Assembly: GCA_023150875.1 (NCBI GenBank)
Contig: JAKLKC010000037.1
Coordinates: 1-64,000 of the forward strand
Source: Myxococcota bacterium
GTDB taxonomy: Bacteria; Myxococcota_A; UBA796; UBA9615; JAKLKC01
DNA: 64,000 nt
Direction: 5' to 3'
In this document: positions 3,524 to 62,566 of the stretch, one piece after another
Numbering within the stretch: position 1 is the stretch's first letter
Layout of the letters: every line of letters starts with the position of its first letter
Program-made: the position numbers and the translations under genes
Notes under the pieces: generated by a model
What the model saw: only the letters and a program-made list of their open reading frames with translations
Database searches by the model: none
Told to the model about the DNA's origin: nothing

Positions 3524-5086
3524 TCACGTCCCCACTCCCGCCGCGATCGAGGACTCGGCGACCCGGGTGCGGAGTTGGATGGCCTCCGCGAGGTGGGGAG
3601 CTCCGATGTCCGCCTCCTCCGCCAGGTCGGCGATGGTCCGCGCGACCTTCAGGACGCGGTCGTGCCCGCGGGCGGAGAGGTAGAAGCGCTCCATGGCTGC
3701 CCGGAGGAGGCGCTCCGCGTCCGGGGAGAGGGAGCAGTAGCGCTCCACCTCCCGGCGGCTCATGCCAGCGTTGGTGCGGCAAGCCGGAGGCCGATCGGCG
3801 AACCGCCCCTGCTGGATGTCCCGGGCGCGCTCCACCCTCTCCCGGACCGAGCGGGAGGGTTCGCCCGGGGGCGCGCCCCTCAGCTCGGGGTACCGGACGC
3901 GGGAGACGTGGATCTGGAGGTCGACCCGGTCGAGCAGCGGGCCGCTGACCCGCCCCTGGTAACGCTGCACCGCCTGGGGCAGGCAACCGCAGGGCAGGTC
4001 GGGATCCCCGAGGCGGCCGCAAGGGCAGGGGTTCGCGGTCGCCACCAGGGTGAACCGGGCAGGGTACCGGACCGTGGCCCGGGCGCGCCCGATCGTGACC
4101 TCGCCGTCCTCCAGGGGTTGCCGCAGCACCTCCAGCACGGTCCGGGGGAACTCGGGGAGCTCGTCCAGGAAGAGCACTCCGTGGTGGGCCAGGGTGACCT
4201 CCCCCGGACGGGGCTGGCTGCCTCCCCCTATCAGCGCCTGGGGCGTGAGCGTGTGGTGCGGAGCGCGAAAGGGGCGGGTCCGGAGCAGACCGGCGTCCGA
4301 GTGGAGGAGCCCGGCGACGCTGTAGATCCTCGAGACCTCCAAGGCCTCGGGCCTCGACAGGGCAGGCAGGATGCCGGGAAGGCAGCGGGAGATCAGGGAC
4401 TTCCCCGCGCCGGGCGCCCCCACCATCAGGAGGTTGTGGTCCCCCGCGGCGGCGACCTCGAGCCCACGGCGCGCCTCGGCTTGCCCCTTGACGTCGGCCA
4501 GGTCCACCACCGGGATCTCCGCGTCCTCGGGCGCGCGGTCCTGGGGTGGGACGGCGGGGAGTGGGGGCTGGGGCTCGCCGCCTCGCAGCCACGACACGAC
4601 CTGGGTGAGCCGGACTACGGGGACGACCTCGATGCCGTCGACGAGTCCCGCTTCCCGGGCGTTGCCGACGGGCACCACCACCCCGGCGAGGCCCGCCTGG
4701 GCGGCGGCGAACGCGATTGCGAGCACGCCCCGGACGGGCCGGACCTCGCCGTCCAGGCTGAGCTCCCCCACGATGAGGTACCGGTCCGCCCGCTCGCCCG
4801 GGATCGCCCCCGCGGCGCGCAGGATCCCGACGGCGATGGGCAGGTCCAGGGCGGTCCCCTCCTTCCGGCTGCCGGCGGGGGCGAGGTTGACGGTGATCCG
4901 ACGCTTCGGGAACTCGAACCCGCTGTTGGCGATGGCGGAACGGACACGCTCCTTGCTCTCCCGGACGGCCACCGCCGGCAGACCCACCGTGGCCATGCCC
5001 GGCAGCCTCGCCTGCAGGTCGACCTCCACGTCGACGACGTAGGCATCGAGGCCGTCGATGGCCGCCGAGAGGACCCGCGCCCTCAT
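3524..5086 (-). CDS. comM: YifB/ComM-family Mg-chelatase-like AAA+ ATPase
   Basis: A full-length (520 aa) member of the YifB/ComM family. Residues 1 to 170 form the Lon-protease-like N-terminal domain (LPGMATVGLPAVAVRES, DLPIAVGIL). Residues about 195 to 400 are the Mg-chelatase-type AAA+ domain, with Walker A GAPGAGKS at 223-230 and a FLDELPEF Walker B further on. The C-terminal domain ends with the family's helical bundle. ComM is a hexameric helicase that promotes branch migration during natural transformation; in many non-competent bacteria its role is unknown. A possible DNA-receptor-like OmpA-HhH protein lies at 59840-60673. Confidence 0.9.
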   Translation of the reverse strand: MRARVLSAAIDGLDAYVVDVEVDLQARLPGMATVGLPAVAVRESKERVRSAIANSGFEFPKRRITVNLAPAGSRKEGTALDLPIAVGILRAAGAIPGERADRYLIVGELSLDGEVRPVRGVLAIAFAAAQAGLAGVVVPVGNAREAGLVDGIEVVPVVRLTQVVSWLRGGEPQPPLPAVPPQDRAPEDAEIPVVDLADVKGQAEARRGLEVAAAGDHNLLMVGAPGAGKSLISRCLPGILPALSRPEALEVSRIYSVAGLLHSDAGLLRTRPFRAPHHTLTPQALIGGGSQPRPGEVTLAHHGVLFLDELPEFPRTVLEVLRQPLEDGEVTIGRARATVRYPARFTLVATANPCPCGRLGDPDLPCGCLPQAVQRYQGRVSGPLLDRVDLQIHVSRVRYPELRGAPPGEPSRSVRERVERARDIQQGRFADRPPACRTNAGMSRREVERYCSLSPDAERLLRAAMERFYLSARGHDRVLKVARTIADLAEEADIGAPHLAEAIQLRTRVAESSIAAGVGT

Positions 5087-13582: not shown

Positions 13583-13752
13583 GGGGGGCACGGTGCTGAC
13601 GGACGGAGAGGAGCAGGCGCCGCTTCGTTCCCAGCGGCGCGGGGCCCCGCCGTGGCCGAGCACGGCGGAACAGGGCCTTCCGCTTGCCTCCCCGCCGCCG
13701 ACCCGCCATCCTCTCCGATGCGCCGGGGGGCTCGCGCGGGGTGGAGTCGACG

Positions 13753-16572
13753 ATGCCTTCGTCGCCCGGTCCGGTACAGGCAGATCGAGCCCGTCACCGC
13801 ACTGACGCCGGGCCCTCTGCGGCGGCGGCGAGGGGAGCCGGCGCGGCGGGTGGACGGCCGCTCCGAGGGCGGAGCGCCCTGTTCGTCCTCGTCCTGCTCG
13901 CCCTGGCGGCCCTCGGCCCGCCGGCGCGGGGGGCGGAGTCCGCCGTGGGGCGGGCGATGTTGGCCGGCCGTGCCGCCTTGGAGGAGGGGGACCTCCCCCG
14001 GGCGCTGGTCCAGTGGAGCCTGGCCCTGAGCCGGGCCCGAGGGGCGGGTGACCGGGGGGCCGAGGCCGAGTCCCTGCTCCACCTGGGGGCGGTCCACCGG
14101 CGCCTGCGACGCCACGCCGACGCCCGGGGGGCGTTCGAGGAGGCGGCCCGGATCGAGCGCTCCCTGGGCAACCCCGTCGGCGAAGCGGCAGCCCTCCACG
14201 ACCTCGGCCTCGTGGACCTCGACCTGGGAGCCCCGGAGCCGGCGGCCCGGAGGTTCGAACGGGCGTTCGGGGCCTTCCGGGAGGCGGGGGACCCCCTCAA
14301 GGCCGCGGGATCCCTGCTGGGCCTGGGGATCGCCGAGGGGGACCTCGGTCAGCTCCGGTCGGCCGTGGCCCGCTTCGAGGCCGCCCTGAGCCTCTTCGAG
14401 GCCGCCCGGGACGATCGAGGCGTGGCGGACGCGCTCAACGCCCGGGGAGCGGCCCTGCGCCTCCTGGGGCGACTCGGCCCCGCCCGGGACGACCTCGACC
14501 GGGCGGCGGCCCTCTACCGCCGGGTCGGCGATGCCAGCGGCGAACTGGACGCCCTGCACAACCTGGCGGCGGTCCTCCAGGATGCGGGGGAGGCGGGGCG
14601 GGCGGCGGAGCTGTACGCCCACTCCCGGGACGCCCTGCGGGCGCGCGGAGATCCCGAGGGCGCCGCCGCTGCGGCCCTGGGGGCGGCTACGGTGCTGCAT
14701 GCCGCCGGGGACCTCGACGGCGCCCGGGCGGCCTACGACGAGGCCCTGGAGCTGGCGTCCCGGGCGGGAGACGAAGGCATTGAGGCGGCGGTGGAGCTGG
14801 ACATGGGTGTCCTCGCCCTGGCGAGGGGGGACCACCGGGGCGCGCGGTCCCTCCTCTCCAGCGCGCGGGACCGGGCCTCTTCGCGCCGCGACCACGCCGG
14901 GGAGGCCCGGGCGTCCCTCGCCCTCGGCCGGGTTTTCGGGGAGATCGGGGAGGAACGCGAAGCGCGCCGAGCCCTCCAGCGGGCGGTGGAACTCACCCGG
15001 GGGGAGCTGCTGCCCGAGGTCCGCTGGCGTGCGCTGCACCTGCTCGGCCGTTCCGCCCTGGCGAAGGGCGACCCGGAGACGGGGATCGCGCGGCTGAGGG
15101 AGGCGGTGGAGGTGATCGAGGCCCTGCGGGACGGGCACGGGGCGGACGAACCCGCGGACGCGGGCCGCTTCCTCGCCTCCCGGGCCTCCCCCTACGAGGA
15201 CCTGGTGGGAGCGCTCCTCGCCACGGGGGACTCCCTGGGCGCGTTCCTGTACAGCGAACGCCTCCAAGTGGCCGACCTCCGGAGCGGCCTCCCCGCCGAC
15301 GACGGCGGGGGGGACCTGGTGGCCCGATACGACCGGTTCGCAGGAAGGGATCGAGCCCTCTCTGCCCGCCTCCAGGAGGCGCTGGGCGCGGCCGAGCCCG
15401 AGCGGGATCCCGAGAGGGTCGAGGCGCTGCGGGAGGGGCTCCGGCGGTCGCGCATCGAGTTCAGCGCCTTCGTCGACGACCTGCGGGAGTCCAGCCCCGA
15501 CCTCGCCTCGGCGGTGCGGGTCGACCCCGACGACCTCCAGGCCACCCGCCGGGCGCTGCCCGCGGACGTCGCCGTGCTCCAGCCGATGCTGGTGGGCGAG
15601 CGGCTGGTGCTCTTGGTGTTCACCCGCGAGTCCCTGGCGTTCGAGGAGCCACCCGTCGAGGCGAGGAAGGTGGAGCAGGCGGTGTCCCGAACCCTCAGGG
15701 CGCTCCGGTCCCAGGACCGGGCGGACCTCCCGCGCCTGAAAGAGGACCTGGGAAGGCTGCACGGCTGGCTCGTGGCCCCCGTCGCCCAGCACCTCGCCCG
15801 GGCCTCCACCCTGCTGGTCTGCCCCGGAGGCGCGTTGCGCTACCTGCCCTTCGCGGCCCTGTGGGACGGGGAGCGGTGGCTCGGCGAGACCCACGCGGTG
15901 GCGACCCTGACCCATGTCGGCTCGATCCGCGGCGCCGAGGGTGACCGGGCCCCCTTCCGTCTGCGGGACGGCGCGCTGCTGGCGATGGGGGATCCCGACG
16001 GCACGCTGCCCTCGGCCGCGCGGGAGGTGGAGGCGCTACGGTCCGCGTTCCCCGCGGGGCGCTTCCACCTGGGCGCCGGGGCCACCCGGGAGGCCCTGGC
16101 GAGGGACGCGCCGGGCAGGGCCGTGGTGCACCTGGCCACCCACGGCGTCCTGGACGCCTCGGATCCTCCGTCCTCCTTCATCCTGCTCGCCGGGGAGGGC
16201 GAGGCGGCGCGCCTCTCCTACCGCGAGATCCCCGCCCTCGCCGACGCCTTGGGCACCGCGCACATGGTGGTGCTGTCGGCGTGCGAAACGGGGATCGGGA
16301 TCCGGGGGCGGGGCGAGGGCGGCGAGGGCAGGGAGATCGCCGGCCTGGCCCACCAGTTCCGGCGCGCCGGCGCTCCGACGCTGGTGGCGTCGCTGTGGAA
16401 GGTCTCCGACGACGGGACCGGGGAGCTGATGAAGGCGTTCTATGCCGAGCTGGCGGCGGGGGCCGGGCGGGCCGTCGCCCTCGCCCGGGCCCAGAGGAAG
16501 CTCCTGCGGGACGAGCGGTTCGCCCACCCGTACCACTGGGGCGCGTTCGTGGTGATCGGCGACTGGACCTGA
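13753..16572 (+). CDS. Exported TPR-CHAT protease-like protein
   Basis: A 939-residue protein. A hydrophobic segment near residues 43 to 60 (LFVLVLLALAALG) probably exports or anchors it. Residues about 65 to 470 are tandem TPR helices with repeated HLGAVHRRLR-type pairs. The C-terminal 330 residues form a CHAT domain, a caspase-like fold. The catalytic dyad is visible as H797 in HLATHG and C844 in SACETG, and a late ASLWKVSDD motif completes the fold. CHAT proteases cleave partners recognised by attached repeats. The ATG at 13753 was preferred to the in-frame ATG at 13684. Its stop touches a 221-bp inverted-repeat element. Confidence 0.8.
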   Translation: MPSSPGPVQADRARHRTDAGPSAAAARGAGAAGGRPLRGRSALFVLVLLALAALGPPARGAESAVGRAMLAGRAALEEGDLPRALVQWSLALSRARGAGDRGAEAESLLHLGAVHRRLRRHADARGAFEEAARIERSLGNPVGEAAALHDLGLVDLDLGAPEPAARRFERAFGAFREAGDPLKAAGSLLGLGIAEGDLGQLRSAVARFEAALSLFEAARDDRGVADALNARGAALRLLGRLGPARDDLDRAAALYRRVGDASGELDALHNLAAVLQDAGEAGRAAELYAHSRDALRARGDPEGAAAAALGAATVLHAAGDLDGARAAYDEALELASRAGDEGIEAAVELDMGVLALARGDHRGARSLLSSARDRASSRRDHAGEARASLALGRVFGEIGEEREARRALQRAVELTRGELLPEVRWRALHLLGRSALAKGDPETGIARLREAVEVIEALRDGHGADEPADAGRFLASRASPYEDLVGALLATGDSLGAFLYSERLQVADLRSGLPADDGGGDLVARYDRFAGRDRALSARLQEALGAAEPERDPERVEALREGLRRSRIEFSAFVDDLRESSPDLASAVRVDPDDLQATRRALPADVAVLQPMLVGERLVLLVFTRESLAFEEPPVEARKVEQAVSRTLRALRSQDRADLPRLKEDLGRLHGWLVAPVAQHLARASTLLVCPGGALRYLPFAALWDGERWLGETHAVATLTHVGSIRGAEGDRAPFRLRDGALLAMGDPDGTLPSAAREVEALRSAFPAGRFHLGAGATREALARDAPGRAVVHLATHGVLDASDPPSSFILLAGEGEAARLSYREIPALADALGTAHMVVLSACETGIGIRGRGEGGEGREIAGLAHQFRRAGAPTLVASLWKVSDDGTGELMKAFYAELAAGAGRAVALARAQRKLLRDERFAHPYHWGAFVVIGDWT

Positions 16573-35094: not shown

Positions 35095-35376
35095 TCAGCC
35101 CTGGGCGGACTCCACCGCGCCGTCGGCGGACGGACGCAGCACGCCCGCCTTCCGGATCAGGGCCCGCACCTTGTCGGTGGGCTGGGCGCCCTTGGCGATC
35201 CAGGAGCGGATCTTCTCGCCGTCGAGCTGGACGTGGGTGGGGTTCCGCTGGGGATCGTAGGTGCCCACGACCTCCAGGAACCGGCCATCGCGGCGGCTGC
35301 GGGTGTCGGCCGCGACGACGCGGTAGAATGGGTTCTTCTTGGAACCGTGGCGGGCAAGCCGGAGCTTGACGGACAT
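35095..35376 (-). CDS. rpsP: 30S ribosomal protein S16
   Basis: A 93-residue S16: SVKLRLARHGSKKNPFYRVV opens it, followed by RRDGRFLEVVGTYDPQ and IRSWIAKGAQPTDKVRALI. It is the first gene of the rpsP-khpA-rimM-trmD-rplS-yraN run, with a near-consensus promoter 106 bp upstream. There is no ffh gene before it, unlike many other bacteria; the next gene upstream is an unrelated lipoprotein. About 160 bp separate it from khpA. Confidence 0.95.
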   Translation of the reverse strand: MSVKLRLARHGSKKNPFYRVVAADTRSRRDGRFLEVVGTYDPQRNPTHVQLDGEKIRSWIAKGAQPTDKVRALIRKAGVLRPSADGAVESAQG

Positions 35377-35481
35377 CGGGGGGGAGCCTCCTGGGATCCG
35401 CTGGGGCGACGAGGGATTCGGTGCGGCTGGGTCCTGACGGCGCGGGCGAACACCCGGGCTGGCGGCCCGCGGAAGGTCGGC

Positions 35482-46228: not shown

Positions 46229-46299
46229 GCCCCGAGCACCTCGTCGGTGGCCTGTTCGCCGCCGCCCTCACCCTTTACCTCGTCTACGCCCTCGTGCGT
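46225..46299 (+). pseudogene. kdpF: kdpF remnant, fused into kdpA fragment
   Basis: The start [20 protein letters not shown] and YALVR match KdpF, the small stabilising subunit of the K+-ATPase. After about 25 residues the frame loses the KdpF ending and homology jumps, one base out of frame, to residue 365 or so of KdpA. KdpF and the first two thirds of kdpA have therefore been joined by a deletion (or misassembly). Confidence 0.65.
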
Positions 46300-46582
46300 C
46301 ATCACCCCCGACGTGGGGAACCTCGAGGGCAAGGAGACCCGGTTCGGCGTCGCCGCCTCGGCGCTGTTCGCGGTCGTCACCACGGCGGCGTCGTGCGGGG
46401 CGGTGATCGCGATGCACGACAGCTTCACGCCGCTGGGCGGCATGGTCCCCCTCGCCAACATCCAGCTCGGAGAGGTCGTGTTCGGGGGGGTCGGCGCCGG
46501 CCTGTACGGGATGCTCGTCTTCGCCCTGCTGACGGTGTTCATCGCCGGCCTGATGGTCGGGCGGACGCCCGAGTACCTCGGC
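46298..46582 (+). pseudogene. kdpA: kdpA fragment (C-terminal middle part)
   Basis: About 95 residues of KdpA survive: [52 protein letters not shown] and VGRTPEYLG. KdpA is the potassium-conducting subunit (normally near 560 residues); the pore loops before this part are gone. No start codon is available in frame. The fragment runs in frame straight into kdpB homology at TTALW, where the rest of KdpA and the first 45 or so residues of KdpB are missing. Confidence 0.75.
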
Positions 46583-47644
46583 ACCACGGCGCTCTGGCTG
46601 CGGGACCTCGTAGTCCCTGCGCCCGGCTCCCCGCCCGCGAGCTTCACCGGCGCCGTGGCCCTGTGGCTCTGGTTCACGGTGCTCTTCGCCAACCTCGCCG
46701 AGGCCATCGCCGAGGGGAGGGGCAAGGCCCAGGCCGAGACGCTACGCCACATGCGCCGGGAGACCGTCGCCCGGAAGCTCCGTCCGGACGGCGGGGAGGG
46801 GGAGGTACCGGCCTCGGCGCTCCACGTCGGCGACCTCGTCGTGGTCGAGGCGGGGCAGACCATCCCCGGGGACGGCGAGATCGTCGAGGGCGTCGCCTCC
46901 GTCGACGAGTCGGCGATCACCGGGGAGTCCGCGCCGGTGATCCGCGAGAGCGGCGGCGACCGATCCGCCGTGACCGGGGGCACGCGCGTGCTCTCCGACC
47001 GCGTCGTCGTCCGGATCACCGCCGAGCCCGGCCACACCTTCATCGACCGCATGATCGCCCTCGTCGAGGGGGCGGCCCGACAGAAGACACCGAACGAGAT
47101 CGCCCTCCACATCCTGCTGGTCGGCCTGACCCTCGTGTTCCTGATCGCCTGCGTGACCCTGCTCCCCCTCGCGCTCTACTCCGGGGTCGCCCTCCCGACC
47201 GCGGTGCTGGTGGCGCTGCTGGTCTGCCTGATCCCGACGACCATCGGGGGCCTCCTCTCGGCCATCGGGATCGCCGGCATGGACCGCCTGATCCGGAGGA
47301 ACGTCCTGGCGATGAGCGGCCGGGCGGTGGAGGCGTCCGGGGACGTGGACGTGCTCCTCCTCGGCAAGACCGGCACCATCACCCACGGCAACCGCATGGC
47401 GACCGAGCTGATCCCCGCGCCGGCCGTCCGCATCGATACCCTGGCGGAGGCGGCCCTGCTCTCCAGCCTCGCCGACGAGACGCCGGAGGGCCGCTCCATC
47501 GTCTCCCTGGTCCGCGAGCGCCTCCCGCAGGTCCTGCCTCCGGGCCCCGAGCGGGCGACGTTCGTGCCGTTCACCGCCCACACCCGCATGAGCGGGCGCG
47601 ACCTCGACGGACGCCTCGTCCGGAAGGGCGCGGTGGACGCCATC
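46583..47644 (+). pseudogene. kdpB: kdpB fragment with altered phosphorylation motif
   Basis: About 355 residues of the P-type ATPase subunit: [19 protein letters not shown], the TGES actuator loop ([10 protein letters not shown]), [18 protein letters not shown], and the P-domain motif [10 protein letters not shown] at 47354-47383. The phosphorylated aspartate (DKTGT in the family) is replaced by glycine (GGC at 47363-47365). Homology stops after RKGAVDAI (47644): the last 280 or so residues, with the TGD and GDGxND motifs, are absent. The frame is otherwise open. No active pump can come from this. Confidence 0.8.
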
Positions 47645-47645
47645 G

Positions 47646-47846
47646 CCGCTGTGGCAGGTGGAGCGCGTGGCGGCGGCGCGGGGCGTGGCCCCCGGGCGGG
47701 TGCGGACCGTCGTCGAGGCGTACACCGAGGGGAGGACGCTGTGGGTGCTGGGCGAGCCCCGGGTCAACGTGCTCCTCCTCAACCTCGCCCTCGACCGGCA
47801 GTTCGGACGCCCCCCGGTCGATCGGCCGGCTGCTTCGGGGAGGTGA
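47646..47846 (+). pseudogene. kdpC: kdpC fragment (C-terminus)
   Basis: The last 65 or so residues of Kdp[36 protein letters not shown] and [14 protein letters not shown], then a normal stop. The N-terminal membrane helix and two thirds of the protein are missing, and the fragment is one frame away from kdpB. A GTG at 47658 could start a peptide but nothing supports that it is made. Confidence 0.75.
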
Positions 47847-47849
47847 GGC

Positions 47850-48179
47850 GTGGAGGAGGACTTCGTCGTCCTGAGGCCCTCGCCCGACCGGGACCCCGAC
47901 GGCTCCCGCATGAGAGCGGCGGTCAGGGCGCACTACGCCTTCGAGGCCGCCCTCGGCGCGAGGCGGCTGTTCGTGTCGGGGATGGCCTGGGCGAGCGTGG
48001 CCGTGTGGCCGGTGGCCACGTGGCCTGGAGCGCTCCCCCCGCGGGTCGAGTCCTGGGCACGGTTCGTCTGGGCCGCCCTGTTCGTGGGGACGCTCGTCGC
48101 CTTCGCTGTGGAGCGGCACTGGCGTACCATCCGCGCGCGCCTCGCCGTCGAGCTCGGCCCACCATCCGAGGAGCCCTGA
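47850..48179 (+). CDS. Two-span membrane protein between kdpC and kdpD
   Basis: A 109-residue protein with GTG start and a GGGGAGG site. Two hydrophobic segments lie at about residues 40-60 ([17 protein letters not shown]) and 70-88 ([17 protein letters not shown]), with an acidic N-terminus and short basic tail. Small proteins of this position occur between kdpC and kdpD in some deltaproteobacterial operons. Its stop is two bases before the TTG of the KdpD-like gene, so it is part of the same transcript. Possibly a sensor accessory; unproven. Confidence 0.55.
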
Positions 48180-48181
48180 CG

Positions 48182-49333
48182 TTGACCGGAACGGAGCGGC
48201 CCCGAGCCCAGGACTTCCTCGAGCTCGTCGAGCGCTCCAGGCGGGGGCGCCTGAAGGTCTACATCGGCTTCGCCGCCGGGGTCGGGAAGACGTACAGGAT
48301 GCTCGAGGAGGCCCACGCACTGAAACGTCGCGGCGTCGACGTGGTGCTGGGGGCGATCGAGACCCACGGACGCGCCGAGACGGCCGCGCTCCTGGAGGGG
48401 CTGGAGCTGGTGCCGCCCCGCCGCGTGGAGTACCGCGGCGTCTCGGTGGGGGAGATGGACCCGGGCGCCCTCCTCGCCCGGCGGCCGCAGGTGGCGGTGG
48501 TCGACGAGCTCGCCCACACCAACGCCCCCGGCTCCCGCCATCCCAAGCGCTACCAGGACGTCCTGGAGTTGCTGGCCGAGGGCATCAACGTGATCTGCGC
48601 CCTCAACGTCCAGCACCTGGAGAGCCTCAACGACGTCGTCGAGCGGGTCACCGGGGTCCGCGTGCGCGAGACGGTGCCGGACACCTTCCTGCAGCAGGCG
48701 GACCAGGTCGTCAACCTCGACCTCGCCGTCGAGGACCTGATCGAGCGCCTCCGCGCCGGCAAGATCTACGGGGAGGAGCGGGTCGCCTGGGCCCTCGAGA
48801 ACTTCTTCCGGACCCACAACCTCATGACGCTCCGGGAGCTCGCGCTCCGCGAGGTCGCCGAGAGCGTCGACCGCCGAGCCGGGTCGCGGGCGGGCGTCCC
48901 GGCGGCACGTCCAGCCGCCGGCGGCCGGGTGATGGTGTGCATGGCCTCGCGCTCGCCCCGGAGCGCCATGCTGCTGAGGAGGGGGTCCCGGCTCGCCGGG
49001 CGGCTCAACACCGACTGGTTCGTCGCCTACGTCGAGACCCCGAGGGAGACGCCGGAGCGGATCGACTCCGAGGCCCAGCGCCTCCTGCTGGCCAACATCC
49101 AGCGCGCCCGGGACCTCGGCGCCGAGGTCGTCCGCCTCAAGGCGCGCGATCCGGTGGCGGCCCTCCTGGACTTCGCCCGGAGCCACGGCGTGGGCTACGT
49201 GCTGATCGGCCGCACCGCCCAGCGGTGGTGGCAGCGGGTGATGGGTCGCTCCTTCATGGACCGGATGGTCAGGGAGTGCGAGGGTCTCGACCTGCACATC
49301 GTGTCCTTCGAGGAGCGCGAGGAACAGCGGTGA
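48182..49333 (+). CDS. Stand-alone KdpD sensor domain with USP domain
   Basis: A 383-residue cytoplasmic protein: the KdpD N-terminal domain (residues 10-225) with Walker [13 protein letters not shown] at 29-40, [20 protein letters not shown] and an [17 protein letters not shown] segment. A universal-stress-protein domain follows at about 240-375, ending with [11 protein letters not shown] and a RSFMDRMVR motif. The membrane helices and kinase core of full KdpD are absent and are supplied by the next gene. KdpD senses potassium or turgor and binds nucleotides and c-di-AMP. Start TTG; stop overlaps the kinase GTG (GTGA). Confidence 0.88.
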
Positions 49334-55645: not shown

Positions 55646-56122
55646 ATGAGCGAAGCGCCACCGTTCCATTCCTCACGCCGGGGACTCCTCCGGGGGATCG
55701 CCGCGCTGGCCGCGCTGCCCGCCGCCGGGGCCGCCGTACCCGATGCCCGCGCCGCCGCCGCGCCCCCGGACGTCGCCGAGGTGCCCGGTGGGGACGTGTT
55801 CCTCGCCCGGACCTACGTGGCGGGGATCCCCTACTACGACGCCCGAGCGGCCGCCTCCGACCTCGCCCCAGGGGCGCCCCTGCGCCTCCGCCGAGAGCCG
55901 GGCAACCCCCACGACGGGCTGGCCATCGAGGTCCTGTGCGGGGACGGCCGGAAGCTGGGCTACGTCCCCCGGGCCGCCAACCCGCCATACGCCCGCCTGA
56001 TGGACGCCGGGGCGACGGTGTTCGCGGAGGTGGCGCAGGTGCGGGGGATCGGAGACTGGCTCGACATCGACGTGCGCCTTGGCCTCCGCCTGGGTCCGGG
56101 AGGCAGACTGCGGCTGGGGTAG
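55646..56122 (+). CDS. Exported HIRAN-domain protein
   Basis: A 158-residue protein with a twin-arginine-type signal (SSRRGLLRGIAALAALP) ending about residue 35. Residues 50-150 are a HIRAN domain: FLARTYVAGIPYYD, LRREPGNPHDGLAIEV and GRKLGYVPRAANPPYARLMD. HIRAN domains usually bind DNA 3' ends within helicases or stand alone in the cytoplasm, so export is unusual. The ATG at 55646 was chosen because of the signal peptide; the frame upstream carries the amidohydrolase relic. A tandem repeat follows. Confidence 0.75.
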   Translation: MSEAPPFHSSRRGLLRGIAALAALPAAGAAVPDARAAAAPPDVAEVPGGDVFLARTYVAGIPYYDARAAASDLAPGAPLRLRREPGNPHDGLAIEVLCGDGRKLGYVPRAANPPYARLMDAGATVFAEVAQVRGIGDWLDIDVRLGLRLGPGGRLRLG

Positions 56123-56149
56123 GGGCTGGGGTGAGAGGGGAACCCGAAC

Positions 56150-56361
56150 ACGTGCACGGGCGCGAACGCGATCACGATCACGAGCGCGAACACGATCACG
56201 GGCGCGAACACGTGCACGTCTCCGTGCCTCGTGCCTCGTGAACGTGCCCCGTGCCTCGTGAACGTGCCTCGTGTACGTGCCTCGTGCCTCGTGAACGTGC
56301 CTCGTGCCTCGTGAACGTGCCTCGTGCCTCGTGAACGTGCCTCGTGCCTCGTGAACGTGCC
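56150..56361. repeat. 20-bp tandem repeat and CACG/CGTG-rich array
   Basis: Four perfect units of CTCGTGCCTCGTGAACGTGC start at 56281, 56301, 56321 and 56341, preceded by degenerate units from 56222. Before that (56150-56220) lies a CACGATCACGGGCGCGAACA-type array that is partly the reverse complement of the CGTG side, so the block can fold on itself. No gene is in the 420 bp between HIRAN and the kinase operon apart from this. Confidence 0.8.
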
Positions 56362-56543
56362 CGTGATCGCGCCCCGCCTCCCCCCCGACCCCCAAGCCAA
56401 GATCCCCCACCGCCGGCCGTCCCTCCCCCCCAGGCCGCGTCCCAGACTGGTTTGAGCCCCACCGGACGCGGGGTAGCATCCCCCGCCCATGGCCTCACCC
56501 CCCTCCCATCCCCCCCCCTCGCCCGCCCCAGCCCCAGTACGCC

Positions 56544-57947
56544 GTGCGGCGGACCTTCCTCGCCGCCCACGCCCTGGTGGGGGGGCTGGCCCTGGCCCTC
56601 GCCGGCCTCGCCGCCTGGCGCCTCGCCGACGTCACCGCCGAGACCCGCGCCCTCAGGGAGCAGACCCTCCCGGCGGCACGGCTCGCCGAGGACGCTCCGG
56701 AGCGGTTCCGGCTCGCCCGGGCCCTCGCCCGGAAGGCGGACGTCTCGGCGGATCCCCGCTACGTCGACCGCGCCTGGGAGGAGATGCACGACCTGGGCGC
56801 CGACCTGGTCCGCCTCGCCGAGAGGGAGCCGGCCCTGGCCCCCGCGGCGGGTGCCGCCGTGGTGGCGTTGCGGGAGGCCACCGGCGCGGAGGGAGCCGGC
56901 GTCGAGGCCGCGGAGGGGGCCCTGGAGACGCTACGGGGGGAGGCCGCCTCCCTCCTCGCGCTGCGCCTGGAGGAGGCCGAGGGGGCGGGCCGGTCGGCGG
57001 CCCGGGGGCTCGTCGCCGCCGCCGCCGCCCTCTCCGCCCTGCTCGCGTTCACGTCGCTCCGCCTCGCCCGGCGGGTGACCGCCCCCCTGCGCGACCTCGT
57101 GGAGGCCACCCGCGCCTACGCCTCGGGAGACCTGGCCTTCCGCGCGCCGGTCCGCCGGGACGACGAGTTCGGGCGGGTGGCGGGAGCGATGAACGAGATG
57201 GCCGAGCGCCTCCGGGTAGCCCGGGAGGGGCAGGCCAGCCTCTTCCTCGCGGTCTCCCACGACCTGAAGACCCCCCTCGCGGCGATCCTGGAGGCGGGGC
57301 ACCTGCTGGCCGAGGGGGTGCCCGGCCCCCTCGCCGAGGGGCAGCGGACCCTGGTGGAGATCGTGCAGAAGGAGGCCGCCCGCCTCCAGAACCTCGTGAA
57401 CCTGCTGCTGGAGGCGCGGCGCCTCGCCGCGGACGGGGCCCCCGAGGTGGAGGACGTCGACGTCGGCGAGCTGGCCGCCGCCGCGGCGCGCCCCCTGGAT
57501 CTGCTGGCCCGGGGGCGGGACGTGGGGATCCGGCTGGCGGTGGTGGCCGAGTTCGGTCCAGTGCGCCTGGACCGGGCCCGCTTCGAGCAGGTCCTGGTGA
57601 ACCTCCTGGACAACGCGGTACGCCACTCCCCCCGGGGAGGATCCGTGGAGCTGGGGGCGCGCCGGGATCCGGGGGGAGGCGTGACGATTTGGGTGGAGGA
57701 CGAGGGCGCCGGGGTGCCCCCGGGCGAGGCGGATCGCCTGTTCGAGCCCTTCGAGAGGGCGGGCCGGCGGGGGGGCGGCACGGGACTGGGGCTGTCGATC
57801 TGCCGCCGGGTGGTCGAGGCCCACGGCGGCACCATCGGCCTCGTCCCGGGCACCCGGCGGGGCGCCCGCTTCGAGATCTGCCTGCCGGCGGGCGGCGGGG
57901 CGGCGACCGGCCCCGGTCCCGGGGCGCAGAGGAAGACGACGGCATGA
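56544..57947 (+). CDS. Membrane histidine kinase (QseE/GlrK-like position)
   Basis: A 467-residue sensor kinase. TM1 at about 5-25, an extracytoplasmic helical domain to about 150, TM2 near 158-178 (ARGLVAAAAALSALLAFTSL), HAMP (RVTAPLRDLVEATRAYASGD), HisKA with H239 in AVSHDLKTPLAAI, and a complete HATPase (LLDNAVRHSPRGG, EDEGAGVPPGEADRL, GTGLGLSICRRVV). Its stop overlaps the ATG of a coiled-coil lipoprotein gene and a sigma54-type regulator follows, the layout of qseE-qseG-qseF. Start GTG at 56544. Confidence 0.9.
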   Translation: MRRTFLAAHALVGGLALALAGLAAWRLADVTAETRALREQTLPAARLAEDAPERFRLARALARKADVSADPRYVDRAWEEMHDLGADLVRLAEREPALAPAAGAAVVALREATGAEGAGVEAAEGALETLRGEAASLLALRLEEAEGAGRSAARGLVAAAAALSALLAFTSLRLARRVTAPLRDLVEATRAYASGDLAFRAPVRRDDEFGRVAGAMNEMAERLRVAREGQASLFLAVSHDLKTPLAAILEAGHLLAEGVPGPLAEGQRTLVEIVQKEAARLQNLVNLLLEARRLAADGAPEVEDVDVGELAAAAARPLDLLARGRDVGIRLAVVAEFGPVRLDRARFEQVLVNLLDNAVRHSPRGGSVELGARRDPGGGVTIWVEDEGAGVPPGEADRLFEPFERAGRRGGGTGLGLSICRRVVEAHGGTIGLVPGTRRGARFEICLPAGGGAATGPGPGAQRKTTA

Positions 57948-58306
57948 AGACCCCCACCCCCCCCACCGCCCCGCGCGTCCCGGTTCCCCTGCGGGCCGCC
58001 GGCGCCCTGCTCCTGACCATGGGCCTCGCCGGCTTCGGCGCCGGCTGCCCGCGGCCCTCGTCCCCACCGCCCCCCGAGGTCCCCTCGCCCGGGTGGGGCG
58101 CCGGATCGGGGGCCGCGGCGCCGGACCTCTCCGCCGGCCTCGCCCGCTGCGAGGAGGCCCGGTCCGAGGCCGAGGCGCGGGCCCGCGCCGCCGAGGCCCG
58201 GACCCGGGACCTGGAGGCCGCCCTCCGGCGGTCCGAGGAGCGGGTGACGCTCCTGGAGGCGCGGATCGAGGCCCTGAAGGCGGTGGACCTGGAGGGCCAA
58301 CCGTGA
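57944..58306 (+). CDS. Coiled-coil lipoprotein (QseG-like position)
   Basis: A 120-residue lipoprotein: signal and lipobox ending GFGAGC near residue 35, a Pro-rich linker, then a heptad coiled coil from about 65 to 113 (EEARSEAEARARAAEARTRD, RSEERVTLLEARIEALKAV). In enterobacteria QseG is an outer-membrane lipoprotein of the same place and form that controls the QseE kinase, so a regulator of the adjacent kinase is likely. It overlaps both neighbours by four bases (ATGA before, GTGA after), so the three are tightly coupled. Confidence 0.72.
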   Translation: MKTPTPPTAPRVPVPLRAAGALLLTMGLAGFGAGCPRPSSPPPPEVPSPGWGAGSGAAAPDLSAGLARCEEARSEAEARARAAEARTRDLEAALRRSEERVTLLEARIEALKAVDLEGQP

Positions 58307-59733
58307 AGGGCGCAGGGGGCGCGGGGGGCGCCGACGCCGGCGAGGGGACGGTGCTGGTGGTGGACGACGACGACAGCCTCCGGACGCTGCTGGCGATGCG
58401 GCTCGGGGCGGCGGGCCTCCGGGTCCTCTCCGCGGCCCGGGGGGAGGAGGCCCTCGGGTGGGTGGGACGGGAGGAGGTGGACGCCGTCCTCCTGGACCTC
58501 CGCCTCGCCGGAGGGGAGGACGGGCTGGACGTGATGGAGCGCCTCGCCGCCGCCCGCCCCTCGCTGCCGGTGGTGATCCTGACCGCCCACGGCACCGTCC
58601 CGGGCGCGGTGGAGGCGATGCGCCGGGGCGCCCTGGGGTACCTCTCCAAACCCGCCGAGCCCGACGTGCTCCTGTCCCAGGTGGAGGCCGCCGTCCGGGA
58701 GGGGCGCCAGCACCGGCGGGGGGAGGAGCTGCGCCGGGCCGCGACGGCGGGGGACGGCTTCATGGGGATGATCGGCCGTTCGCCGGCCATGCGGGCGATG
58801 TTCCAGCAGATCTCCCGGGTGGCCCCCGCGGACCTGCCGGTGTCGATCCTGGGAGAGAGCGGCACGGGCAAGGAGCTGGTCGCCCGGGCCGTCCACGCCC
58901 TGGGCCCCCGCGCGGGGCGGGCCTTCCTGGCGGTGAACTGCGCCGCGCTCCCGGAGTCCCTCCTGGAGTCGGAGCTGTTCGGGCACGTGCGGGGGGCCTT
59001 CACGGACGCCCGGAGCGCCCGGGACGGCCTGTTCAAGCGCGCGGACGGGGGGACGCTGCTCCTGGACGAGATCGGCGACATGTCCCCGAAGGTCCAGGCG
59101 GCGCTGCTCCGGGTGGTCCAGGAGGGGGAGATCACCCCCGTGGGGGGCGTCCGCCCCGAGAGGGTCGACGTGCGCCTGCTGGCCGCCACCCACCGGGACC
59201 TGGGGGCCGAGGTGGCGGCGGGCCGGTTCCGGGAGGACCTCTTCTACCGCGTCCAGGTGCTGCCGATCCGGGTGCCCCCCCTGAGGGAGCGCCCCGACGA
59301 CGTGCCCCTGCTGGCGATGCGCTTCCTCGCGGACGGCGCCCCGCGCCTCGGCAGGGGGGACGTCCGGGGCTTCACCCCCGGGGCCTTGGAGCGCCTGAGG
59401 TCCTACCCCTGGCCGGGGAACGTGCGGGAGCTCCAGGCGTGCGTAGCCCGGGGGGCGATCATGGCGGCGGGGGAGCTCGTGGACGAGGCCGACGTGGCGC
59501 CACCCCGGGGGGCCGGGGATCCCCCCTCCCCCTCCGGCGAAGCGACGTCGACGGCGGTCCTTCCCCTGAGCGAGGCCCGGGCGGCCTTCGAGCGGGACTA
59601 CCTCGCGAGGCTCCTCGCCCTGCACCGCGGCAACGTCAGCGCCGTCGCCCGCGCCGCCGGCCGCTACCGCGCCGACGTCTACGGGATGCTGCGCCAGCAC
59701 GGACTGGACCCGGACGCCTACCGCGAGGGCTGA
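58303..59733 (+). CDS. Sigma54-type response regulator with GAFTDA loop (QseF-like position)
   Basis: A 476-residue regulator. Receiver with D65 (LLDLRL), AAA+ with GESGTGKE Walker A, LLDEIGDM Walker B, and a Fis-type helix-turn-helix (NVSAVARAAGRYRADVYGML). The sigma54-contact loop reads GAFTDA instead of the usual GAFTGA, which could weaken or alter contact with sigma54. GTG start overlapping the lipoprotein stop. Third such regulator in the window; unlike the others it has its cognate kinase next door. Confidence 0.92.
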   Translation: MKGAGGAGGADAGEGTVLVVDDDDSLRTLLAMRLGAAGLRVLSAARGEEALGWVGREEVDAVLLDLRLAGGEDGLDVMERLAAARPSLPVVILTAHGTVPGAVEAMRRGALGYLSKPAEPDVLLSQVEAAVREGRQHRRGEELRRAATAGDGFMGMIGRSPAMRAMFQQISRVAPADLPVSILGESGTGKELVARAVHALGPRAGRAFLAVNCAALPESLLESELFGHVRGAFTDARSARDGLFKRADGGTLLLDEIGDMSPKVQAALLRVVQEGEITPVGGVRPERVDVRLLAATHRDLGAEVAAGRFREDLFYRVQVLPIRVPPLRERPDDVPLLAMRFLADGAPRLGRGDVRGFTPGALERLRSYPWPGNVRELQACVARGAIMAAGELVDEADVAPPRGAGDPPSPSGEATSTAVLPLSEARAAFERDYLARLLALHRGNVSAVARAAGRYRADVYGMLRQHGLDPDAYREG

Positions 59734-59799
59734 CCTCGGGCGACCTTGGGGGGGTGAGGAGGGCGAGGGGAAGAGGAAGGCGAGGGGATGGGGGAGGCG

Positions 59800-59829
59800 C
59801 CGGGGTGTAGGAGATCCCCTACACCCCGG
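59800..59829. terminator. Bidirectional terminator hairpin
   Basis: Perfect 12-bp stem CCGGGGTGTAGG (59800-59811) / CCTACACCCCGG (59818-59829), 6-nt loop, in the gap between the convergent regulator (ends 59733) and OmpA-HhH (ends 59840). Confidence 0.65.
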
Positions 59830-59839
59830 CTGAAGGGAC

Positions 59840-60673
59840 CTACAGGCCGCCGCCGAGGATGATCCGGTCGCGGACCCTCTCCAGGGCCGCGGCGTCCACG
59901 CCCTCGACGCCCAGCAGCTCGTCGACGGACTCGATGCGCCCGGCGGTGGCGCGGTACCGCACGATGCCCTCGGCCACGGCGCGGTCGACGCCCAGGACGA
60001 AGGCGATGCGCGCGGCGTCGGCGGTGTCGATCTCCACCTTCCCCGGGCGGCCGGCGAGGCGGTCGTCCGCGGTGAACGGCGCGATCACCAGGTCCACCCG
60101 CCGGTTGTCGGAGGTGCCCTCCTCGGCGTTGGCGGCCTCGGGCCGTTGGTCCGAGTAGCCCGCCACCACCAGCCGGTATCCGGGGATCCCCGCCTCGTCC
60201 TGGAGGAACTCGGCGACGTGGGCGGCGCGGTCCGCGGACAGCTCCCAGTTCGAGGTGAAGCGGCGGTGGCCGGTGATGGGGACCGAGTCGGCGTGGCCGA
60301 TCACCCGCATCACGAAGCGGTCGTCGTCCCGGACGGTGGAGGCGACCTGGCGGAGGATCTCCTTGCCCTGCTCCGAGAGATCGGCGCTGCCCAGCTCGAA
60401 GAGGGCCGAGTCCGCGAGGCGGACCTGGACGCCGGCCTCGTCCTGCAGGCGGGACACCTGCACCTTCAGCTCGTCGTACTGGGACGCCAGGCCCCGGAGC
60501 TGCTCCTCCAGGGCCGCCGCCCTCCCCTCCAGGTCGGCCCGGGCCTTCTGCTCGGCGAGGTAGAGCCCCTCCAGCTCGGCGTACTTCGCCTTGCTCACGC
60601 AGCCGGTCCCCGCGCCGGCCCCCACCAGGACCATCGTGGCCAGAAGGGCGCGGTTCCATCGATCGAAGTGCAT
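59840..60673 (-). CDS. Lipoprotein with OmpA-type domain and C-terminal HhH DNA-binding motif
   Basis: A 277-residue protein: lipobox ending GAGTGC near residue 25, a coiled coil at about 30-85 (AKYAELEGLYLAEQKARADL), an OmpA/MotB-type domain at about 90-215 (DSALFELGSADLSEQGKEIL, YRLVVAGYSDQRPEAAN, SDNRRVDLVIAP), and a ComEA/PulG-like helix-hairpin-helix pair at 218-277 (VEIDTADAARIAFVLGVDRA, ELLGVEGVDAAALERVRDRI). OmpA domains bind peptidoglycan; the HhH binds DNA in ComEA. A peptidoglycan-anchored DNA receptor is a fair hypothesis but unproven. Confidence 0.75.
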   Translation of the reverse strand: MHFDRWNRALLATMVLVGAGAGTGCVSKAKYAELEGLYLAEQKARADLEGRAAALEEQLRGLASQYDELKVQVSRLQDEAGVQVRLADSALFELGSADLSEQGKEILRQVASTVRDDDRFVMRVIGHADSVPITGHRRFTSNWELSADRAAHVAEFLQDEAGIPGYRLVVAGYSDQRPEAANAEEGTSDNRRVDLVIAPFTADDRLAGRPGKVEIDTADAARIAFVLGVDRAVAEGIVRYRATAGRIESVDELLGVEGVDAAALERVRDRIILGGGL

Positions 60674-60799
60674 CGGACGTCCTCCATGAGCGCCCCCGTT
60701 CGTCGGGGAGCCGCCGGAACGTCCGGAGGACGGAGCACGGGGCGTGCCACTTCCGGGACGTACACCGCGTTCCGAACGGAACGAAGGGTGGCCCCCGCC

Positions 60800-62506
60800 C
60801 TACCACTCCCGCCGCAGCAGCGTGTCCCGCTTCCAGCACTCGTCGTCGGTCGCGGGGCAGTCCAGGTTGTAGTGCAGGCCGCGGCTCTCGCGGCGCGCCT
60901 GGGCGCAGCGGATCGCCAGGGAGGCGACCGTGGCGAGGTTCCGCAGCTCGACGAGGTCCGACGTCAGGCGGAAACTCCAGTAATACTCCTCGATCTCCTC
61001 CTCCAACATCTCGATGCGTCGCCTCGCCCGGGCGAGCCTGCGGTCGGTCCTCACGATCCCGACGTAGTTCCACATGAGGCGCCGGATCTCGTCCCAGTTG
61101 TGTAGGACCACCACCTCCTCGTCCGAGGGGACCGCGTCCCCCTCGTCCCAGGGGGGGACGTCCACCCCCGGGGAACGCCGGGCCTCGTCCAGCGCGCGGC
61201 CGGCGTCCACGGACGCCCGGGCGGCGAAGACCGCCGCCTCCAGCAGGCTGTTGCTGGCGAGGCGGTTGGCGCCGTGGAGGCCGGAGCACGCGACCTCGCC
61301 CACGGCGTAGAGCTGGCCCAGGTCGGTGCGGCCGTGCAGGTCGGTGAGCACCCCGCCGCAGAAGTAGTGGGCCGCCGGGACCACCGGGAGGGGCTGTCGG
61401 GTCATGTCGATGCCCAGCTCCAGGCATCGGGCGTGGATGTTGGGGAAGCGCCGCACCACCTCCTCGGCGGGCACGTGGGTGACGTCCAGGTGTACGAACT
61501 CCAGCCCCCGGGCCTTGATCTCGTGGTCGATGGCCCGCGCCACCACGTCCCGGGGGGCCAGGTCGCCCCGGGGATCGTGGCGGGACATGAACGCCTCGCC
61601 GTCGGGGAGCCTCAGCACGCCCCCCTCGCCCCGCACCGCCTCGCTGATCAGGAAGTTCCGGGCGTCCGGGTGGTAGAGGCAGGTGGGGTGGAACTGCACG
61701 AACTCCATGTTCGCCAGGGTCGCCCCCGCCCGGTACGCCATCGCCATCCCGTCCCCCGAAGCCACGTCGGGGTTGGTGGTGTACAGGTAGACCTTCCCGG
61801 CGCCGCCGGTGGCCAGCACCGTCACCGACGCCTCGAACGCCGTCACCCTGCCCGTCCGCGCGTCCAGGGCATACGCGCCCAGGCAGCGGTCCTGCCGGGC
61901 GGCGGGCCACGCCTCCGGGCCCCCGGGGCCGAACAGGGCCTCGGCCTCCCGTCCCCGAATCGCGAGGCGCCTCTTCTCGCGGTAGCGCGCCACCTTCCGC
62001 TCGGTGATCAGGTCCACGGCGAGGTGGCCGGTGAACACCTCGATCCGCGGGTCCCGCCCCGCCGCCTCCACCAGCACCCGCTGCAGCTCGGCGCCGGTGA
62101 CGTCGTCGGCGTGGAGCACCCGCCTCTCGCTGTGGCCCCCCTCCCGGGTCAGGTGGAAGCCGTCGCCCCCGCCCTCGTCCCGGGTGAAGCGCACGCCCAG
62201 GTCGATCAGCTCCCGGATCCGGTCCGGCCCCTCCCGCACGCACACCTCGACGGCGTCCCGCCGGTTCAGGTCGGCGCCGGCGGCGAGGGTGTCGGCGATG
62301 TGGGCCTCGAAGGAGTCCCCGGGGTTCCACACCGCCGCGATCCCCCCCTGGGCCCACTGGGTGTTGGAGTCGAACAGGTCCCGCTTGGCGAGGACCGCGA
62401 CGCGCCCGAGGCGGGCGAGCCTCAGGGCGCAGGACAGGCCAGCGAGTCCCGCGCCCACGACCAGGAAGTCGTAGCGGCGGCTGTGGGGAGGGTCCGTCAT
62501 CGACAT
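60800..62506 (-). CDS. nadB: L-aspartate oxidase
   Basis: A 568-residue FAD enzyme that oxidises L-aspartate to iminoaspartate, the substrate of NadA (19619). FAD motif FLVVGAGLAGLSCALRLARL near residue 14, SNTQWAQGGIAAVW, TREGGHSERRVLHADDVTG, EFVQFHPTCLYHP and CSGLHGANRLASNSLLE are intact. Its C-terminal helical domain carries a CPATDDECW end. Start ATG at 62506, where a TATACT box ends seven bases upstream on the same strand, so the transcript may begin very near the ATG. nadA is 40 kb away. Confidence 0.92.
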   Translation of the reverse strand: MSMTDPPHSRRYDFLVVGAGLAGLSCALRLARLGRVAVLAKRDLFDSNTQWAQGGIAAVWNPGDSFEAHIADTLAAGADLNRRDAVEVCVREGPDRIRELIDLGVRFTRDEGGGDGFHLTREGGHSERRVLHADDVTGAELQRVLVEAAGRDPRIEVFTGHLAVDLITERKVARYREKRRLAIRGREAEALFGPGGPEAWPAARQDRCLGAYALDARTGRVTAFEASVTVLATGGAGKVYLYTTNPDVASGDGMAMAYRAGATLANMEFVQFHPTCLYHPDARNFLISEAVRGEGGVLRLPDGEAFMSRHDPRGDLAPRDVVARAIDHEIKARGLEFVHLDVTHVPAEEVVRRFPNIHARCLELGIDMTRQPLPVVPAAHYFCGGVLTDLHGRTDLGQLYAVGEVACSGLHGANRLASNSLLEAAVFAARASVDAGRALDEARRSPGVDVPPWDEGDAVPSDEEVVVLHNWDEIRRLMWNYVGIVRTDRRLARARRRIEMLEEEIEEYYWSFRLTSDLVELRNLATVASLAIRCAQARRESRGLHYNLDCPATDDECWKRDTLLRREW

Positions 62507-62566
62507 GGCCGCAGTATAGGGGCGGGGAGCCGGTGGCGGCAGGGCGGAGGGCGCGCCCCCCACGGC

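Follow-up and report, generated by a model that had tools for sequence, protein, structure and literature searches.

The window analysed here, a 64,000-nucleotide stretch of a Myxococcota contig (JAKLKC010000037.1), contains a gene whose product joins an OmpA-type domain to a ComEA-like HhH domain, a fusion that is real and rare and that puts known domains in a new order. We give a probability of roughly 0.55 to the reading that this product is a peptidoglycan-tethered adaptor lipoprotein, whose HhH domain does not bind DNA and whose gene is possibly induced by a sigma-54 system of the QseEGF type. The gene and the segments that it encodes are:

59840–60673, minus strand: gene of the OmpA-HhH probable lipoprotein, 277 aa (ORF, Pfam, codon usage)
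60599–60673, minus strand: signal peptide and probable lipobox Cys25, GTGC with a non-canonical −3 residue (sequence; AlphaFold2 helix 3–17)
60479–60592, minus strand: predicted coiled-coil stalk, aa 28–65 (AlphaFold2 helix 28–65)
60113–60403, minus strand: OmpA/MotB-type domain, predicted to bind peptidoglycan, aa 91–187, with D129, N142 and R149 kept (Pfam, alignment, fold match)
59861–60040, minus strand: ComEA-like (HhH)2 domain, aa 212–271 (Pfam, sequence and fold matches)
59975–59992, minus strand: first hairpin, G228-V229-D230-R231-A232-V233, facing G58-I59-G60-P61-K62-K63 of ComEA, with the DNA-contact residues lost (alignment)
59894–59902, minus strand: second hairpin, G258-V259-D260, GhD in place of GhG (alignment)

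The frame opens with an ATG behind a GGAGG ribosome site (60685–60681), and both Pfam matches fall within its single 277-residue translation, far above chance: 58.7 bits for OmpA (PF00691; cut-off 27.2, E 7.5e-16) and 45.5 bits for HHH_3 (PF12836; cut-off 27, E 8.1e-12). GC3 is 0.98–1.00 in all three segments compared (coiled coil, OmpA, HhH), and this uniform codon pattern, together with the unbroken frame, indicates one gene and gives no sign of a frameshift join, so that a fusion artefact was ruled out. The full-length AlphaFold2 model is composed of a signal helix (3–17), a helix at 28–65, the OmpA domain, a disordered linker at about 205–214, and a helical C-terminal domain. The fusion announced in a preliminary description of this DNA, made from the sequence before any searches, therefore stands, with two Pfam matches above cut-off in one frame and both folds predicted. 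Its naming of the protein as a lipoprotein is probable rather than certain, because the signal does end in G-T-G-Cys25 but the lipobox lacks the usual Leu at −3.

Regarding the peptidoglycan side, the top PDB matches of the full model in Foldseek are MotS, PomB and MotB, indicating a MotB/OmpA-type domain, and the same list includes 3td5, an OmpA-like domain in complex with diaminopimelate. In solved OmpA-like domains, an Asp and an Arg of the OmpA-like motif bind the diaminopimelate (DAP) of the stem peptide. In an alignment with 25 homologues from the phylum, 126-GHAD-129, N142-W143 and R149 occupy invariant or near-invariant columns, and the DAP-contact residues D129 and R149 are aligned in invariant ones; homology and the retention of D129, N142 and R149 thus support the earlier proposal that this half would hold peptidoglycan. 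The NCBIfam equivalog cut-offs for MotB/TssL are not reached (MotD, 111.7 vs 283; TssL, 89.8 vs 139.8). The protein is like the MotB/YiaD-type OmpA lipoproteins (PF00691) in its signal, coiled coil, OmpA domain with the DAP-binding D/N/R, and NRR motif; those lipoproteins, however, stop soon after OmpA or in a low-complexity tail, whereas the window protein adds an (HhH)2 domain.

The HhH part, when modelled alone with 35 homologues, gives a confident (HhH)2 fold (AlphaFold2, pLDDT 86.6), the best PDB match of which is ComEA (8dss, TM 0.81 in Foldseek), with Tex and the ComEA-related 2duy also matched; its score against the NCBIfam ComEA HhH model, TIGR00426, is below the cut-off (39.4 vs 53.1). 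The closest solved HhH domain by sequence is that of EEPD1 (9yi2), with hairpins GVTRAVA and GLSEKMA, the first of which is close to GVDRAVA of the window protein; EEPD1 is a human protein that has an endonuclease/exonuclease/phosphatase-family domain where the window protein has OmpA. Among the fold matches there is also PsbU, a photosystem II protein with the HhH fold in a non-DNA role, although this match is weak (E about 0.2) and PsbU has no peptidoglycan domain.

Compared with ComEA (2DUY, 8DSS, and the Vibrio cholerae protein), the window protein shares the (HhH)2 fold and secretion, but it lacks the GIG hairpins and the K62/K63 pair, is acidic in this domain (net charge −3, pI 4.76), is fused to OmpA, and is encoded away from competence genes. 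The ComEA register was set by the invariant R71, 11 residues past G60; its equivalent R241, likewise 11 residues past D230, is kept, while G60, K62 and K63 of V. cholerae ComEA align with D230, A232 and V233, so that neither the GIG hairpin nor a Lys/Arg at 62/63, by which ComEA is recognized, occurs in the window domain. In V. cholerae ComEA, the Lys pair is required for in vitro DNA binding; K63A lowers transformation about 250-fold, K63E and K62/63A abolish it, and G60V and G60E are non-transformable, whereas G60A is unimpaired (PMC3879209). The preliminary description proposed that this half could hold double-stranded DNA, and here the sequence alignment read with the fold match speaks against it, through the D/A/V replacement, the GVD second hairpin and the low pI. 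Non-GhG HhH domains could bind DNA in another way.

The same signature recurs in the genome: Gly60 with K/R at 62/63 is found in none of its nine secreted HhH domains, the window one included, all of which have D or T at position 60 and a hydrophobic residue or Thr at 63. Elsewhere in the phylum, the 44 HhH domains that match best show Gly at position 60 in 42 cases and Gly60 combined with K/R at 62 or 63 in 36, a fraction that is indicative only, the 44 having been picked by score against a profile containing GIG rows.

A second OmpA-HhH protein was not found among the matches listed with the full protein as query (94 genomes), with a chimeric profile (71 genomes of the class and 379 of the phylum), or with a junction profile (the 379 phylum genomes), nor in 72,556 plasmids, nor in a scan of genome contigs for close relatives. 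Phyla beyond its own were sampled via the plasmids and that one contig scan, and weak or very divergent fusions may be missed. The window protein is a single sequence, with no orthologue found in the searched genomes, and a search of the literature for an OmpA-HhH fusion found none. Among the matches listed from about 380 sampled genomes of the phylum, the combination appears to be confined to this one. Two junction matches were rejected: that on G016 contig C11 is an unrelated protein that ends in an HhH domain and has no OmpA domain, and the open frame around a long one on G207 contig C3 has 134 aa, which leaves no room for an OmpA domain. The former (35153–35464) is in itself a secreted-effector-like protein, eCIS/DUF4157-like by eye, with its GIG-type HhH at the end.

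This distribution bears on the possibility of a recent accidental fusion, in which an HhH domain from the genome's secreted HhH pool took the place of the short tail with which an ordinary OmpA lipoprotein ends, leaving an anchor that works and an HhH domain of little function. It agrees with the single occurrence in the phylum, among the matches listed, with the lack of HhH in all 25 OmpA homologues examined, most of which end 20–45 aa past the NRR motif, and with the GhD/GhT signature that the domain has in common with the genome's own secreted HhH domains. Yet the HhH domain is well folded in the prediction, and its hydrophobic pattern, A234 and Y240-R241 are kept in a gene with the codon usage of a maintained one, so that we regard such an accident as rather unlikely.

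The genes and elements around the OmpA-HhH gene are:

56544–57947, plus strand: HAMP/HisKA sensor kinase, in place of qseE (Pfam, NCBIfam)
57944–58306, plus strand: small putative lipoprotein, 120 aa, with Cys35 and a coiled coil, in place of qseG (sequence only)
58300–59733, plus strand: GlrR/QseF-like sigma-54 response regulator, convergent, with its ORF open from 58093 (Pfam, NCBIfam)
59799–59830, no strand: 16-nt inverted repeat between the converging genes, 94% complementary, a possible terminator without a T run (sequence)
60734–60749, minus strand: sigma-54-like −24/−12 element TGGCACGCCCCGTGCT, with one mismatch, 60 nt from the ATG (motif search)
60800–62563, minus strand: nadB (L-aspartate oxidase), upstream neighbour, linkage not conserved (Pfam, neighbourhoods in relatives)

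The preliminary description saw in the protein a wall-anchored DNA receptor or a biofilm DNA anchor, with OmpA on peptidoglycan and HhH on double-stranded DNA. For this role there are the ComEA-like fold, the kept R71 equivalent, ComEC and DprA in the genome, and a three-HhH lipoprotein just downstream of pilB-pilT on its contig C11, which hints at a possible link between such secreted proteins and pili or uptake in this genome. It is quite unlikely all the same, because the residues with which ComEA holds DNA are missing, and changes at those positions cripple or abolish ComEA function (PMC3879209); the acidic charge adds to this, no competence gene adjoins, and residues and charge together rule it out as the main reading. 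The accompanying transformation theme comes out weak: ComEC and DprA are indeed present, but on contigs other than that of the window, YifB/ComM (3524–5086) is about 55 kb from the OmpA-HhH gene, and the neighbours of the latter are nadB and a two-component system instead of competence or pilus genes. Competence as such is possible, yet it is not tied to this gene.

That the HhH domain serves oligomerisation or a pilus/secretion contact, on the model of GspK, a T2SS minor pseudopilin with an HhH-type domain, is quite unlikely. In its favour are weak T2SSK matches among the genome's remaining secreted HhH domains, GspK/XcpX low in the HhH fold list, and the adjacency of the C11 HhH lipoprotein to pilB-pilT; against it, the GspK fold matches are poor (E above 0.5) and the gene is away from pilus and T2SS genes.

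In the preferred reading, that of a tethered adaptor, the Cys25 lipid anchor and the short coiled-coil stalk would place the protein in the cell envelope, where the MotB-type OmpA domain would hold a peptidoglycan stem peptide; past the flexible linker, the acidic ComEA-fold (HhH)2 domain, its DNA-phosphate contacts apparently lost, would most likely dock on another envelope protein. A putative sigma-54-type promoter may switch the gene on via the convergent QseE-QseG-QseF-like system. If the tether reading is true, two common envelope parts have given a new domain combination, and the case is a reminder that a match to a ComEA-like profile does not mean DNA binding. A broader version, which we hold unlikely as a whole, makes the protein a stress-induced tether (sigma-54, QseEGF-like) of an unrecorded OmpA-(HhH)2 architecture, one of the lineage's set of secreted GhD/GhT-type HhH proteins, with the repurposed ComEA-fold domain capturing a specific periplasmic partner, or DNA without the GIG/Lys contacts.

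As for the regulation of the gene, the order kinase, lipoprotein, sigma-54 regulator at 56544–59733 is that of QseE-QseG-QseF (GlrK-QseG-GlrR), the lipoprotein being assigned by sequence alone, and the set thus resembles this system outside Enterobacteria. It differs from it in that the regulator, whose best NCBIfam match is GlrR, scores 409.3 bits against an equivalog cut-off of 763, and in having a small lipoprotein without a family match. The genes of the E. coli qseEGF operon stand in the same order; there, QseG is a lipoprotein of the outer membrane, and QseF turns on envelope regulators from sigma-54 promoters (PMC6075780). The element TGGCACGCCCCGTGCT lies on the OmpA-HhH strand in the 126-bp gap that separates the gene from nadB, also on that strand, and was noticed after the fact; it is one mismatch away from TGGCACGNNNNTTGCW (GTGC for TTGC), with exact −24/−12 spacing and GG/GC elements 10 nt apart, and 0.15 such matches are expected per 64 kb window on both strands. 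No QseF-type TGTN12ACA site occurs upstream of the OmpA-HhH gene, the one near it being the convergent inverted repeat. Because the element was seen after the fact and this upstream site was not found, regulation by the neighbouring system is a lead only. Conserved links with the two neighbours were also considered and rejected: the nearest regulator homologues in relatives have no adjoining OmpA-HhH gene, and nadB has other neighbours in six genomes of the order. The matches of the NadB protein itself came from uncultured marine proteobacterial MAGs, at near 60% identity.

Several secreted HhH domains in this genome are without the DNA-contact residues, and automatic annotation would call them DNA-binding. 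The three-HhH lipoprotein (L081:4050-4800; G000 contig C11, 35.0–35.8 kb) is encoded immediately after pilT and pilB, in their orientation; its hairpins are GVT, QVT and GID, the residues facing ComEA K63 are neither Lys nor Arg, and no clear orthologue of it was found in the class. At L080:3760-5475 (G000 contig C99, 66–67 kb), two adjoining secreted proteins each have two GhD-type HhH domains, and this contig also carries ComEC, at a distance of about 34 kb.

Elsewhere in the window, positions 13684–16572 encode a TPR-CHAT protein (caspase-like protease fold) in a frame of 962 aa, and one frame at 46247–49333 combines partial matches to KdpA, to a KdpB-like E1-E2 ATPase and to KdpD, possibly because of frameshifts or because the kdp operon is truncated. 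A repeat-like stretch, the translation of which repeats 'RGTRHVHEARGTFTRHEA', lies between gene sets at 55960–56490.
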